The position numbers and the translations under genes were made by a program. 64,000 nucleotides of DNA. Origin: Betaproteobacteria bacterium. Lineage in GTDB: Bacteria > Pseudomonadota > Gammaproteobacteria > Burkholderiales > Ga0077523. Shown here piece by piece: positions 7,773-12,441 of the stretch; the stretch's first letter is position 1, and the number at the start of each line of letters is the position of its first letter. The notes under the pieces are model-generated. The model saw only the letters and a program-made list of their open reading frames with translations. It was not told the DNA's origin and searched no databases. The stretch covers positions 124,001 through 188,000 of the forward strand of contig WGLR01000023.1 of the NCBI GenBank assembly GCA_016125475.1. The letters are read 5' to 3'.

Positions 7773-8198
7773 TTGGCATTCGAGCTCGCATGGCTCCTCG
7801 TCGGTGTCGCGCTCGTCATCCTCGAGCTCATGACGGGGACGTTCTATCTGCTGCTCCTGGGTGGGGCGTCCCTTGCGGCGTCTGTCGTGGCATGGCTCGG
7901 TCACGCGTTCTGGCTGCAGGCAGGCACCGCGGGATCGGTCGCGCTGATCGGGGTGTTCTGGCTCGCGCGACACCGCCGCAGCCTGGCGGGGCGGGCAGCC
8001 GTGGCGGGAATGGACGTGGGGCAACCGGCGACGTTCGAGACCTGGCTCGACAAGGGAGCGCGGCTGGCCCGGGTTCGTTACCGAGGCGCGACGTGGGATG
8101 CAATGGTCGACGGCGAGGATGATCTCTCGCCCGGCAGGAACGTTTACGTGAAGGCCGTCGACGGCAATCGCCTCGGGGTGTCGGTCCGGCGCCCATGA
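7773..8198 (+). CDS. NfeD family membrane protein
   Basis: Partner protein of SPFH (stomatin/paraslipin) proteins, 141 residues. Two or three hydrophobic helices (about 4-23, 27-45, 47-65) precede a C-terminal OB-fold domain (about 80-141). The order and size match the short NfeD form without protease domain. The start is TTG 7773, supported by TGGAGGA 8 bp upstream; no in-frame ATG gives a complete first helix. It runs straight into the stomatin-like gene, whose reading frame opens at ATG 8195 within its stop codon. The pair is expected to form a membrane-microdomain complex. Confidence 0.85.
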   Translation: MAFELAWLLVGVALVILELMTGTFYLLLLGGASLAASVVAWLGHAFWLQAGTAGSVALIGVFWLARHRRSLAGRAAVAGMDVGQPATFETWLDKGARLARVRYRGATWDAMVDGEDDLSPGRNVYVKAVDGNRLGVSVRRP

Positions 8199-8236
8199 AG
8201 CTGCACAGGATATCCGTTCACGGAGGAGGCTCCTCG

Positions 8237-9235
8237 ATGTTTCCGAAACTCGTCGCGGTGATCGTGCTCGCGGTTGCCGCATTCAGCTTTCCACCGACGC
8301 ACGGCTTCGCTGTGCCGCTGTTCATACTCGGTGCGGTGATCGTGTTCATCGTCGAGGGTGTTCGCGTCGTTCCGCAGCAGACTGCGTGGGTGGTCGAACG
8401 CCTCGGCCGGTTCCACAAGATCCTCGAACCGGGCCTCAACATCATCGTGCCGTTCGTCGACCGGGTGCAGTACAGGCACTCGCTCAAGGAAGTTCCGCTA
8501 GACGTTCCGGAGCAGGTCTGCATCACCAAGGACAACACGCAGCTCGGCGTGGACGGGCTGCTCTACTTCCAGGTGACCGATCCGCGACTCGCGAGCTACG
8601 GTGCATCCGACTTCGTGCTCGCGATCACGCAGCTCGCCCAGACCACGCTGCGCAGCGAGATCGGGAAGATGGAGCTGGACCGCACGTTCGAGAGTCGCGA
8701 GGAGATCAACCGCCAGATCGTCGCCGTGCTCGACGAAGCCGGACGAACCTGGGGCGTGAAGGTGCTGCGCTACGAGATCAAGAACCTGACGCCGCCGGAG
8801 TCGATCCTGCGTGCGATGCAGGCGCAGATCACGGCGGAGCGCGAGAAGCGCGCGCTGATCGCGAAGTCCGAAGGACAGCGACAGGAGGAGATCAACCTCG
8901 CCGAGGGCGAGCGCCAGTCCAAGATCCTCGCATCCGAAGGCGAGAAGACGGCCGCGATCAACAAGGCGCAGGGCGAGGCGACGGCGATCCGGATGCTCGC
9001 GGACGCCCAGGCGGAAGCGGTGCGTGCGGTCGCGGCCGCGCTTGCATCGGACGGGGGCATGAATGCGGCGAACCTCAAGGTCGCGCAGGAGTACGTCGCC
9101 GCGTTCGGCGCGATCGCGAAGGCAGGCAACACGCTGATCGTCCCTGCGAGTCTCTCCGATCCCGCGGGGCTCGTGGCAAGTGCGATGACGGTACTGACCC
9201 GGGCAAGTGGAGCGCCCTCGAGCCCCCCTGGCTGA
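8237..9235 (+). CDS. SPFH/stomatin-like (paraslipin) membrane protein
   Basis: Membrane-anchored SPFH protein of 332 residues. One N-terminal transmembrane region (about 1-40) is followed by the SPFH domain (VVPQQTAWVVERLGRFHKIL..., about 45-220) and an Ala/Glu-rich coiled coil (about 190-260) typical of oligomerising stomatins. It probably forms ring assemblies that organise membrane proteins together with NfeD. GGAGGAGG (8222-8229) is 7 bp before ATG 8237, so I prefer this to ATG 8195, which overlaps the nfeD stop. It resembles E. coli QmcA and bacterial slipins. Confidence 0.9.
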   Translation: MFPKLVAVIVLAVAAFSFPPTHGFAVPLFILGAVIVFIVEGVRVVPQQTAWVVERLGRFHKILEPGLNIIVPFVDRVQYRHSLKEVPLDVPEQVCITKDNTQLGVDGLLYFQVTDPRLASYGASDFVLAITQLAQTTLRSEIGKMELDRTFESREEINRQIVAVLDEAGRTWGVKVLRYEIKNLTPPESILRAMQAQITAEREKRALIAKSEGQRQEEINLAEGERQSKILASEGEKTAAINKAQGEATAIRMLADAQAEAVRAVAAALASDGGMNAANLKVAQEYVAAFGAIAKAGNTLIVPASLSDPAGLVASAMTVLTRASGAPSSPPG

Positions 9236-9480: not shown

Positions 9481-10557
9481 TTGACGGTTTTGCAGCAACT
9501 GATGACGATTGTCCGGTTCGCGGCGTGCACGACTCGCCTGGCCCGTGGACCCGTTGCCCTGCTGTTCCTCGCAGGCGTCTGGGCATCCCCTGCGATCGCC
9601 CAGGACGAGGCCGGGAACAGGGCGATTCCGGAACTCGACGTCGAGTACGTGATCGGGCATCCGCACCCGCGCGTGGCCGAGATCGGCTACAAGCAGCCGG
9701 AGGTGTTCGATCCGTTCACCGACAAGCTCTACCAGAGCGGCTTCCGCTACGGCGGGCCGTCGGTCGAGATTCCCCAGGAAGCGCGATACCTGAGCGCGAT
9801 AGGCCGCACGAAGATGCTGAAACGCATCCTCGCGTGCGCCGATGCCTGGTACTACCCGTTCTCGCACACTGCCCCGAAATCCGAGCCGCCCGGCATCGAC
9901 ATCGAGATCCTGAGCCGCATCGCGCAGAGGCACGGGTGGCAATTCTCGATCCTCTGGGCCAACACCGGTGTCTATCGGGGCGGCGTCAACCTGGCCTTCA
10001 AGCAGACCATCAACCGCGGGTTCTGCGACGTGTTCCTGGGGCTCGCGATCACCGGTGTCGACGACCACATGACCCGCAACGACATGGCGTTCACGACCCC
10101 GTACCTCGGCGTCGGCTTCGTGCTCGTGAGTCAGGGCAAGGTGCCCAAGGTGCGGACGCTCGCGGAACTCAAGGGCCAGGGATTCAAGATCGGGGTGCCG
10201 GCCTACTCGCCGATGTACGACAACGCCGTCGAACTCGGCATCCCGGTCGAAACGTACTTCCAGAATCACCGCGTGATCGACGGCCTGCTGCGTCACGAGG
10301 TCGACGCCGTCATGGTCTGGGGACCCTCCATCACGGTGGCGAATCACGACAAGAACGTCGAACTCCACATGTCCGAAGGCTTTCAGCCGATGCCCGGCCA
10401 GCGATTCAACATGGCCTGGGCGGTGAAGGCGAAGGAGACGGAGTTCAAGAAGATGCTCGACGACTCCATCAACGAGATGCTCGCGGACGGGGAGATCCGC
10501 GAGATCGTCGAGCGCTACGACGTGCCGTACTTCGCGCCGTTTCCCGAGGGCCGGTAA
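9481..10557 (+). CDS. periplasmic solute-binding protein, SBP_bac_3-like
   Basis: Exported protein of about 350 residues resembling the solute-binding proteins of polar amino-acid ABC transporters and the MxaJ/XoxJ-like proteins beside quinoprotein dehydrogenases. It has a signal peptide ending PAIAQ, an unusual N-terminal extension of about 80 residues, then a bilobal domain starting at RILACADAWYYPFS with the hinge regions GFCDVFLGLAITG and FKIGVPAYSP. No ABC permease or ATPase gene is adjacent. Instead ExbB, ExbD and TonB genes follow in the same direction. I chose TTG 9481 because GGGGGAG lies about 5 bp upstream; ATG 9502 is the conservative alternative. The ligand is unknown. Confidence 0.75.
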   Translation: MTVLQQLMTIVRFAACTTRLARGPVALLFLAGVWASPAIAQDEAGNRAIPELDVEYVIGHPHPRVAEIGYKQPEVFDPFTDKLYQSGFRYGGPSVEIPQEARYLSAIGRTKMLKRILACADAWYYPFSHTAPKSEPPGIDIEILSRIAQRHGWQFSILWANTGVYRGGVNLAFKQTINRGFCDVFLGLAITGVDDHMTRNDMAFTTPYLGVGFVLVSQGKVPKVRTLAELKGQGFKIGVPAYSPMYDNAVELGIPVETYFQNHRVIDGLLRHEVDAVMVWGPSITVANHDKNVELHMSEGFQPMPGQRFNMAWAVKAKETEFKKMLDDSINEMLADGEIREIVERYDVPYFAPFPEGR

Positions 10558-10622
10558 CGCCCCGGACCGGTGGCTCCCGCACTCGACCGACAATTTCTAC
10601 GACTCTTGAGAAGGTCACGGAC

Positions 10623-11261
10623 ATGTGGACTAGCTTCATCGAACTGAGCAGGCTTTCCATGGGGGTCATCCCCGTGCTGGTCGTCCTGTTCACGCTCGCG
10701 CTCGCGGTCATCATCGAGCGCCTGTACTTCTTCCATCGCGTCCTGTCGCAGGGCGCCGCGATCGAGCACGACCTGAAGCGCACGAGCTATCGGGACACGG
10801 AATCGCTCCGCGGGATCGCCGCGCGCTTCAGGACCGCGCTACAGGCCGGGCTCGTCATGACCGGCGTGGAGTCCCGCTCGGAAGACGCGGAAGCGGCGGA
10901 GCGGCACATCGACGAAACCATCCTGGAGGTCGTCCCGAGGATGGACCGCAATCTGTGGGTGCTCGACACGGCGGTCACGCTCGGTCCGTTGCTGGGTCTG
11001 CTCGGCACGATCTTCGGCATGATCAAGACGTTCAACGTGCTCGGCGCGCATGGCATGGGAGCCGGTGCGGGCGCGGTGACGGGCGGCATCGGCGAGGCGC
11101 TGGTCGCGACGGGAGTCGGCCTGTTCATCGCGATCGTGGGCCTGATCTTCCTCAACTATTTCAACAAGCGCGTGCGCATGGGCGTTCAGCAGATGGAACT
11201 CATCAAGCTCACCGTCGTGAACCGGCTGCACGGCGGTGGCAACGGCGTGGGCGCCGCCTGA
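10623..11261 (+). CDS. exbB: MotA/TolQ/ExbB proton channel family protein
   Basis: Inner-membrane proton-channel subunit of 212 residues that energises TonB. The first helix is at about 10-32 (MGVIPVLVVLFTLALAVIIE). The conserved cytoplasmic loop follows, then two C-terminal helices with the family signature LGPLLGLLGTIFGMIKTF and the glycine-rich TGGIGEALVATGVGLFIAI. The start ATG 10623 has a GAGAAGGT ribosome site. It is followed after 2 bp by ExbD and then TonB, giving the classic energy-transducing order. The 65-bp gap from the binding protein suggests one operon. Confidence 0.9.
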   Translation: MWTSFIELSRLSMGVIPVLVVLFTLALAVIIERLYFFHRVLSQGAAIEHDLKRTSYRDTESLRGIAARFRTALQAGLVMTGVESRSEDAEAAERHIDETILEVVPRMDRNLWVLDTAVTLGPLLGLLGTIFGMIKTFNVLGAHGMGAGAGAVTGGIGEALVATGVGLFIAIVGLIFLNYFNKRVRMGVQQMELIKLTVVNRLHGGGNGVGAA

Positions 11262-11263
11262 TC

Positions 11264-11701
11264 ATGCGTTCGCGCACAGACCGCTACTTCGAGGCGGACA
11301 AGGCCCGCATCGAAGTCATACCGATGATCGACATCATGATGTTCCTGCTGGTGTTCTTCATCATGATCACGATCGACACCATCGCGGGCAGCGGCATTCC
11401 GCTCGACCTTCCGGGCTCGAAGACGACGCAGGTCATCAAGGACACGCAGATCACGATCGGCGTGCAGAAGGACGGTGCGATGTTCGTGAAGGGGAAGAAG
11501 CTCACGGCCGAGGAGCTGACCGCCGAACTCAAGGGCGCGAAGGAGAAGGGCAAGGTCGACGTCGTGATCGCGGGTGACAGGGAGGTGCCGCTGCAGAAGC
11601 TCCTCGACGTCATGGACGTCGTGCGCGGCCAGGGCATCAATTCCGTCGGTATCGCGGCGTCGGACTCGACGCGCGGCGAGGGCGCCGAGCCGTCCAGATG
11701 A
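11264..11701 (+). CDS. exbD: biopolymer transporter ExbD
   Basis: 145-residue partner of ExbB. A single N-terminal transmembrane helix contains the essential Asp in VIPMIDIMMFLLVFF, the proton-relay residue of the family. The periplasmic domain (about 50-130) has the expected beta-alpha fold ending in the DGQGINSVGIA-like segment. It starts 2 bp after exbB and overlaps the tonB start by 4 bp (ATGA), so translation is coupled. Confidence 0.92.
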   Translation: MRSRTDRYFEADKARIEVIPMIDIMMFLLVFFIMITIDTIAGSGIPLDLPGSKTTQVIKDTQITIGVQKDGAMFVKGKKLTAEELTAELKGAKEKGKVDVVIAGDREVPLQKLLDVMDVVRGQGINSVGIAASDSTRGEGAEPSR

Positions 11702-12441
11702 GTGACGAGAACGCCCCGGCCCGGGAGGCGTCGCGGGATCGATCCGGGAAGGACGGCCTGATGCCGTTCTCGCGTGCGCTGCTGCTCGCGATCGCCCTCG
11801 AGGCGATCGTCGTGCTGTATGCGACCGTAAACTGGAGCCAGCTCTTCCCGAAGCCCGTTCCTCCCCCCATGAAGGTCGAGTTCGTGAAGGCGCCTGAGCC
11901 GCCGCCACCGCCGCCTGCGCCGCCGCAGCCGAAGCCCAAACCCAAGAAGAAGAAGCCGAAGCCGCCGACGCCCCCGAAGCCCGAGGACAAGCCGGTTCCC
12001 GCGCAGAAGCCGCCGGAACCCGAGCCCGAGCCCACGCCGAAGCCGCCGCCTCCCGAGCCGCCGCGCACCGACCTTCCGCCACCGAAGAAGCGTGCGAAGC
12101 CGGTGAAGAAGCCTCCTGCGGTCTACCCGAAGGACGCGCTCTCGCAGGGCCTCGAGGGGCGGGTGCGCGTGCGGCTGCTCGTGAGCGGTACGGGCAAGGT
12201 GCTCAAGGTGGAAGTGATCGAGTCCGAGCCGCCGGGTGTGTTCGACTATTCGGCCATCCACGCTGCGAGGGATTATCTGTTTCCGCCCGACGAGAACGGG
12301 GTGGAGCAGTTCCAGATCGATCAGGTGTTCGTCTACCGGCTCGAGGACGACCGCTACGGTCCCGAATCGCGGCCGAAGAAGGACCAGGAGCCGGATCGAA
12401 AGGAGGCGTCACCCGGCGATCAGCCGGACGCCGGGAAGTAG
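11698..12441 (+). CDS. tonB: TonB energy transducer
   Basis: 247-residue TonB. A membrane anchor (about 25-45) is followed by a long Pro/Lys/Glu-rich periplasmic spanning rod (about 55-140, with runs such as PEPPPPPPAPPQPKPKPKKK) and a C-terminal TonB domain (about 140-225: YPKDALSQGLEGRVRVRLLV). The tail after the fold is unusually charged (PESRPKKDQEPDRKEASPGD). It transmits proton-motive force to outer-membrane receptors, but no TonB-dependent receptor gene is in the window. It starts inside the exbD stop (ATGA). Confidence 0.9.
   Translation: MSDENAPAREASRDRSGKDGLMPFSRALLLAIALEAIVVLYATVNWSQLFPKPVPPPMKVEFVKAPEPPPPPPAPPQPKPKPKKKKPKPPTPPKPEDKPVPAQKPPEPEPEPTPKPPPPEPPRTDLPPPKKRAKPVKKPPAVYPKDALSQGLEGRVRVRLLVSGTGKVLKVEVIESEPPGVFDYSAIHAARDYLFPPDENGVEQFQIDQVFVYRLEDDRYGPESRPKKDQEPDRKEASPGDQPDAGK

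Follow-up and report, generated by a model that had tools for sequence, protein, structure and literature searches.

Analysis of a 64,000-nucleotide stretch of the genome of a Betaproteobacteria bacterium (assembly GCA_016125475.1, contig WGLR01000023.1, positions 124,001 to 188,000; this whole stretch is called the window below) revealed a cassette of four genes that encode a XoxJ-like family-3 solute-binding protein (SBP) and the Ton motor proteins ExbB, ExbD, and TonB. The component genes are of known kinds; the pairing of a XoxJ-like protein with ExbB-ExbD-TonB is new. Judged from sequence comparisons, the best explanation is that the four genes form one unit, in which a dedicated Ton motor is made together with a XoxJ-like periplasmic partner for the uptake of lanthanide (or of pyrroloquinoline quinone [PQQ]), and we regard the chances that this whole explanation holds as about even. 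XoxJ assists the methanol dehydrogenase that depends on rare earths, and the Ton motor drives uptake across the outer membrane; the firm union of a relative of the former with the latter points to a dedicated import system for rare earths (or a cofactor).

Organization and conservation of the cassette

The SBP gene (positions 9502 to 10557, 351 amino acids) is followed by exbB (10623 to 11261), exbD (11264 to 11701), and tonB (11698 to 12441). All four genes are located on the forward strand and are separated by 65, 2, and -4 bases, the last value being the 4-base overlap of tonB with exbD. The SBP matched SBP_bac_3 (PF00497) with 41.3 bits (Pfam cut-off, 26.4 bits), and the MotA_ExbB domain of the MotA/TolQ/ExbB family (PF01618, 98.9 bits), the ExbD domain of the ExbD/TolR family (PF02472, 104.5 bits), and the TonB_C domain behind a Pro/Lys-rich spacer (PF03544, 49 bits) lie side by side, each above its Pfam cut-off. 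With the narrower NCBIfam equivalog models for exbB and exbD, the cassette proteins scored below the cut-offs. Position 9481 of the SBP reading frame is a TTG codon, and the next in-frame ATG, at 9502, was adopted here as the start. This start is not fixed, and TTG 9478 or 9481 may be used, because the stretch GGGGGGAG lies immediately 5' of both TTG codons.

A preliminary description of this DNA had reported an SBP joined to ExbB-ExbD-TonB without a receptor or an ABC transporter. The domain searches agree with it, since all four genes exceeded the Pfam cut-offs and neither the Plug domain of TonB-dependent receptors nor an ABC permease domain was matched in the window. The six Plug matches of the genome are located on contigs 8, 15, 18, and 26 and none on contig 22, which carries the cassette. 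Receptors are therefore encoded in the genome, and the cassette TonB may energize some TonB-dependent receptor among them. The ABC permease domain PF00528 had 18 matches genome-wide and none inside the window, the closest being about 19 kb from the SBP gene on the same contig. Nothing was seen to suggest that the SBP belongs to an ABC system elsewhere: the window holds no permease, and the nearest paralogs of the SBP stand beside xoxF.

The gene order is conserved, a point on which the preliminary description had made its proposal depend. The SBP was run as a query over 120 genomes, the window genome included, and returned its own clade and two paralog classes. Of its own clade 16 loci were fetched, and each of them carries SBP, ExbB, ExbD, and TonB in this order; no further gene was found at every locus, so the flanks vary while the cassette stays constant. 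A scan of named genomes, partly the same records as in the 120-genome set, gave 29 loci, of which 23 bear the title Betaproteobacteria, Burkholderiales, Rhodocyclaceae, or Hydrogenophilales. The complete cassette was present at 27 of these 29 loci; in the two exceptions, L081 and L095, the contig ends after ExbD and within ExbB, respectively. Short loci were also read from a sample of the order, covering 16 of its 29 genomes with the cassette and repeating some earlier genomes: SBP, ExbB, and ExbD were found at 16/16, and TonB at 14, the stretch ending first in the other two. The conservation of the order is far beyond chance. The cassette occurs in a group of Burkholderiales most of which are uncultured, and in the loci read the pairing spans the families f1, f19, f24, and f39 of this order.

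The cassette was also found in metagenome-assembled genomes (MAGs) titled Akkermansiaceae (L095) and Bordetella parapertussis (L087); these titles or bins are probably wrong, because both fall within the Betaproteobacterial set by similarity. A plasmid search with the SBP as the query returned a single weak match. One genome has a cytochrome c match immediately 5' of the cassette (L036, 5374 to 5667; L076, 5438 to 5785). In the window, the cassette is preceded by an NfeD and Band_7 (SPFH) pair (7773 to 9235), which is not among the genes kept with it in relatives, and the nearest genes identified downstream encode an amidohydrolase and an ADP-ribosylglycohydrolase. No sigma-70-like promoter was found at the cassette, and terminators were close to chance level.

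Kinship of the SBP and its N-terminal tail

The best NCBIfam match of the SBP was TIGR03871, named "quinoprotein dehydrogenase-associated putative ABC transporter substrate-binding protein" (E value of 1.6e-18; 67.2 bits, below the cut-off of 212.15), and phmmer related the SBP to XoxJ with an E value of 0.0011. In the AlphaFold2 model, residues 91 to 350 mostly reach a pLDDT of 89 to 98 per ten-residue block (two blocks have 72 and 80). Comparison of this model with XoxJ (Protein Data Bank entry 6onp) gave a Z score of 17.6 and a root mean square deviation of 3.2 over 200 residues at 22% identity. Entry 6onp ranked 42nd of the 50 best structure matches listed and had the highest identity among those 50. 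Amino-acid SBPs fit the fold equally well or better, and the fold by itself does not single out XoxJ, because many of them score higher. When 46 SBP cores were placed in a tree, the 30 cassette SBPs formed one clade (support, 93/88) next to the clade of 10 SBPs in the xoxJ position (99/94), and a third class of five formed its own clade (100/100). By these comparisons the cassette SBP is a relative of XoxJ.

The window genome holds both kinds, the cassette SBP and a paralog on contig 33 with 41% identity to it. The paralog gene lies between a PQQ alcohol dehydrogenase gene and a cytochrome c gene, like xoxJ in xoxF-xoxJ-xoxG, and it is the paralog (L050) that shows adjacency to a quinoprotein dehydrogenase. 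No PQQ-dehydrogenase match was found beside cassette SBPs in the stretches read around their loci. The cassette SBP as a replacement for XoxJ was ruled out in most genomes with the cassette, which retain an SBP in the xoxJ position; G394 shows the cassette SBP alone, and G003 shows it plus a fragment. XoxJ-like SBPs of the third class were found within one genus (L061, L062, L063, L065, L067, L068, and L069), with no quinoprotein dehydrogenase match and no ExbBD-TonB within the stretches read at these loci.

Amino-acid binders of the SBP_bac_3 family hold the ligand carboxylate by an Arg and the amine by an Asp or Glu, at positions that we take to be those aligned here. In an alignment to the GlnPQ domains, the Arg corresponds to His (H189) and the acid to Trp (W273), the latter invariant among the cassette SBPs. 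An amino-acid ligand is unlikely, because neither binder residue is kept.

The SBP appears, by eye, to start with a signal peptide, which is followed by a conserved tail (residues ~39 to 97) and the SBP fold (residues ~91 to 349). The extra N-terminal extension that the preliminary description had noted is borne out by the SBP_bac_3 match, which begins at residue 112, and by the predicted fold, which begins at about residue 91 to 96. Before residue 90 the pLDDT is 44 to 68, and the tail of the cassette SBPs is predicted to be disordered; its mean conservation is nevertheless 0.67 to 0.80, compared to 0.75 to 0.82 in the folded part. The segment of residues ~39 to 62 (positions 9616 to 9687, forward strand, ...IPELDVEYVIGHPHPRVAEIG) combines low pLDDT with conservation and is missing in the two paralog classes: SBPs in the xoxJ position lack almost the entire tail, and third-class SBPs have only its second half (DPxxDxxYxxG), the first 25 to 30 residues being absent.

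By eye, the first part of the tail contains a stretch (ELDxEYVIG / DEYVYGRNR) that resembles the TonB boxes of receptors from the same genomes. In this stretch L45 is conserved in 100%, V50 in 90%, and E48 in 87% of the 30 cassette SBPs. The SBP could thus itself be a client of TonB, which would pull or position a periplasmic carrier by this stretch; its location next to the signal peptide, on the C-terminal side, which matches that of the boxes in receptors, its conservation, its low pLDDT, and its absence from the other SBP classes fit such a role. However, a motif model trained on the N termini of 40 receptors (46 nonredundant sequences, of which 10 were dropped and 4 put back after trimming by hand) failed to recognize the tails of the 30 cassette SBPs (median shuffle p of 0.40). 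Its top-scoring position fell inside the extension in 14 of the 30, mostly not at the TonB-box-like stretch. The TonB box, convincing by eye, is not recognized by the model, and we retain the SBP as a TonB client only as a weak alternative that we judge highly improbable. An SBP with a similar tail (KLDTEIVVGGQ) was seen outside the cassette clade, as sister to it, on contig 21 of G034 (L048, 9126 to 10133); its gene lies among several PQQ dehydrogenase genes with no ExbBD-TonB alongside.

LutH-like receptors encoded at other loci

The missing partner of the cassette is probably a TonB-dependent receptor of a LutH-like family, encoded at another locus. A genome was counted as having the cassette when its SBP score exceeded 500 bits. 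In the 120-genome set, the LutH-like receptor was present in 16 of 17 genomes with the cassette and in 16 of 103 others (Fisher p of 3e-10, uncorrected for kinship). A sample of 399 genomes of the order gave 26 of 29 versus 51 of 370 (p of 1e-17, likewise uncorrected). As 51 genomes have the receptor without the cassette, it is not confined to cassette carriers. Among the receptors of the 16 cassette genomes searched for Plug, the family forms cluster 1, which is present in 14 of them.

Plasmids yielded 24 relatives of the LutH-like receptor, and six neighborhoods were read. In Methylobacterium nodulans, one regulator gene separates the receptor gene from a lanmodulin gene (E value of 5e-38). 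The receptors of Sphingobium and Variovorax lie amid quinoprotein genes, and those of Caballeronia, Ideonella, and Methylocalor lie without such genes. In the receptor tree, cluster 1 and the six plasmid receptors were joined at 100/100 and PqqU was set apart at 100/100. In Methylorubrum, lutH (1785) and the lanmodulin gene (1786) are adjacent, according to excerpts of PMC7391723. The family was named LutH-like because it groups with the lanmodulin-linked receptor and because of this adjacency in Methylorubrum, LutH itself being outside the tree. Transport of lanthanide is thus a putative function of the family. Further LutH-like receptors were observed on large replicons of Burkholderia, Paraburkholderia, and Caballeronia (plasmid matches H3 to H16), the neighborhood of H4 being free of quinoprotein genes. 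A second receptor group (cluster 2, ~700 amino acids) is also frequent in cassette genomes, as read with G000 left out. Neither G120 nor G121 showed this group, and its members may play a role alongside the cassette.

The interpretation in the preliminary description is supported in part. The kinship with XoxJ and the co-occurring LutH-like family speak for the link to quinoproteins and lanthanides at which it had hinted, no xoxF or receptor gene is adjacent to the cassette, and the suggested transfer of a ligand to a receptor, or sensing for one, would be a putative role of the SBP. PQQ-dependent alcohol dehydrogenases (TIGR03075) exceeded the cut-off in 22/22 genomes tested, a set that includes 20 cassette genomes. 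At the position that we take to be a marker of lanthanide use, XoxJ-linked dehydrogenases read DYD (13 loci in one set and 6 in another).

The small genomes G120 and G121, whose completeness is not stated, carry xoxF with the DYD motif, a separate XoxJ, and one Plug match each, which is LutH-like. Both have two TonB_C proteins, that of the cassette and an orphan near which no ExbBD was found. The sole other ExbB-ExbD pair of G121 is TolQ-TolR-like (TolQ above the cut-off; TolR with 124.5 of 127.3 bits); in G120, a Tol pair is accompanied by a further ExbB-ExbD pair that has no cassette-like TonB beside it. No ExbB-ExbD-TonB triple of this kind was thus seen in these two genomes apart from the cassette. 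Conserved TonB_C proteins of 300 to 330 amino acids with no ExbBD found near were also observed at L151 to L157 (the contig end truncates L154), L159, L160, and L163; at L160 the following gene presumably encodes a shikimate dehydrogenase.

The same dedicated Ton system could instead serve PQQ or a PQQ-metal complex, with the SBP passing the cofactor on. No PqqC match was found in G120, G121, G122, and G125 (loci L096, L097, L099, and L098, respectively) despite their xoxF-type genes, and these genomes are possible PQQ scavengers or else incomplete. A PQQ substrate would also suit the LutH-like receptor as the sole Plug match in G120 and G121 and its distant relationship to PqqU (6v81; E values of 1e-19 and 3.5e-28), a known PQQ importer according to excerpts of PMC12124388. 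Against it, PqqC is present in 18 of the 22 genomes tested, and the four without it were reached via loci from other tools and have no stated completeness. Moreover, the one LutH-like member aligned (from G075) matches none of the three PqqU signature residues, Y99(F/W), R304, and R365, having L, N, and D (the D beside an Arg) in the printed alignment. In the PqqU-like receptor encoded by the window genome (576 bits; NCBIfam cut-off, 1200 bits), by contrast, F99, R304, and R365 are all present. We consider PQQ as the substrate unlikely. PqqU as the partner receptor was ruled out, since the family shared with the cassette is a different clade and its aligned member lacks the signature. On contig 26 of the window genome (L145, 249500 to 269000), pqqC, a long frame ending in TonB_C, a two-component-like pair, and two convergent receptor genes, one PqqU-like and one LutH-like, were observed together.

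Several observations weigh against a dedicated Ton system with a LutH-like partner. No Plug match was found within 150 kb on the cassette contig in the 16 cassette genomes searched, and the link to the receptor therefore rests on co-occurrence, which within one order is confounded by descent. The receptor was not found in G011, G259, and G370 (64 to 86% complete). G122 and G125 also lack it, the one Plug match of each falling in another group. In G121 its gene is split into two overlapping frames, by an error or because the gene is broken, that of G120 being whole. In G005 and G006 the cassette is absent although xoxF, XoxJ, and the LutH-like receptor are all encoded; the receptor can therefore draw on another source of energy, and the cassette is not strictly needed. 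Finally, the cassette SBP is not the sole XoxJ-type protein, because most cassette genomes retain an ordinary XoxJ.

Proposed function and comparison with known systems

If the Ton system is dedicated to lanthanide (or PQQ), the cassette TonB would energize the LutH-like receptor, and the receptor would bring lanthanide, free or chelated (or PQQ), into the periplasm. For the ligand and contacts of the SBP we infer that it would receive or escort the incoming cofactor towards XoxF, or hold apo-XoxF ready, and that its tail may tether it to a partner in the vicinity of TonB or of the receptor. Since the dehydrogenases act in the periplasm, such a pathway could do without an ABC importer. A more specific mechanism is a TonB-coupled carrier, whose disordered tail docks on TonB or the receptor plug, so that lanthanide or PQQ-lanthanide passes from the LutH-like receptor to the XoxJ-type protein and on to apo-XoxF, bypassing the cytoplasm and an ABC importer; this we find distinctly doubtful.

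According to excerpts of two papers, XoxJ is required for XoxF function (PMC7391723), and XoxJ/MxaJ kin are proposed to aid the insertion of PQQ and metal and are thought to act on dehydrogenases, not on transporters (PMC12997753). The cassette might accordingly encode an ordinary Ton system for several receptors, with the SBP as a second XoxJ-type dehydrogenase chaperone or sensor that shares the operon and needs no contact with TonB; the 3 to 10 Plug matches in larger cassette genomes would suit such a system. Yet the pairing is without exception in the loci read, across four families, while the surroundings change, the larger genomes keep further TonB genes, and the cassette SBP has a clade-specific tail. 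An ordinary Ton system with which the SBP only shares an operon is, in our estimate, unlikely.

Should a dedicated system be confirmed, the cassette would provide a marker of lanthanide use in marine and soil Burkholderiales. It makes the ligands of XoxJ-type proteins and the route of lanthanide from an outer-membrane receptor to a periplasmic enzyme testable, including in those small genomes in which only one receptor was matched.

The periplasmic binding proteins FhuD and BtuF of Escherichia coli have been reported to contact TonB and serve ABC importers; they are not known to be encoded in an operon with ExbB-ExbD-TonB. PqqU (YncD) likewise ties TonB-dependent import to quinoproteins, and the window genome has a PqqU-like receptor, but the receptors linked to the cassette are a separate clade whose aligned member lacks the signature. 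The open PMC library, covered mostly by listings and passages, yielded no account of an exbB-exbD-tonB operon that begins with a XoxJ-like gene. The LutH-like family, which co-occurs with the cassette, recalls the lut cluster of Methylorubrum extorquens (LutH/LutAEF). In that cluster the receptor is paired with an ABC importer (excerpts of PMC7391723), whereas the cassette pairs an SBP with a Ton motor and the window has no ABC permease. A printed precedent is given by the XoxF3 groups of Verrucomicrobia MAGs, in which XoxJ, XoxG, and a TonB-dependent transporter are co-located with XoxF3 (excerpts of PMC10875860); unlike the cassette, these groups include the dehydrogenase, and the term "exbb" occurs nowhere in the main text of that paper, the part to which this statement applies. 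Closest to the cassette SBP are XoxJ, MxaJ, and PedG, which have the same SBP fold, its paralogs adjoining xoxF and cytochrome c genes. The cassette SBP differs from them in being linked to ExbB-ExbD-TonB instead of a dehydrogenase, in its extra tail, and in its score under the TIGR03871 cut-off.

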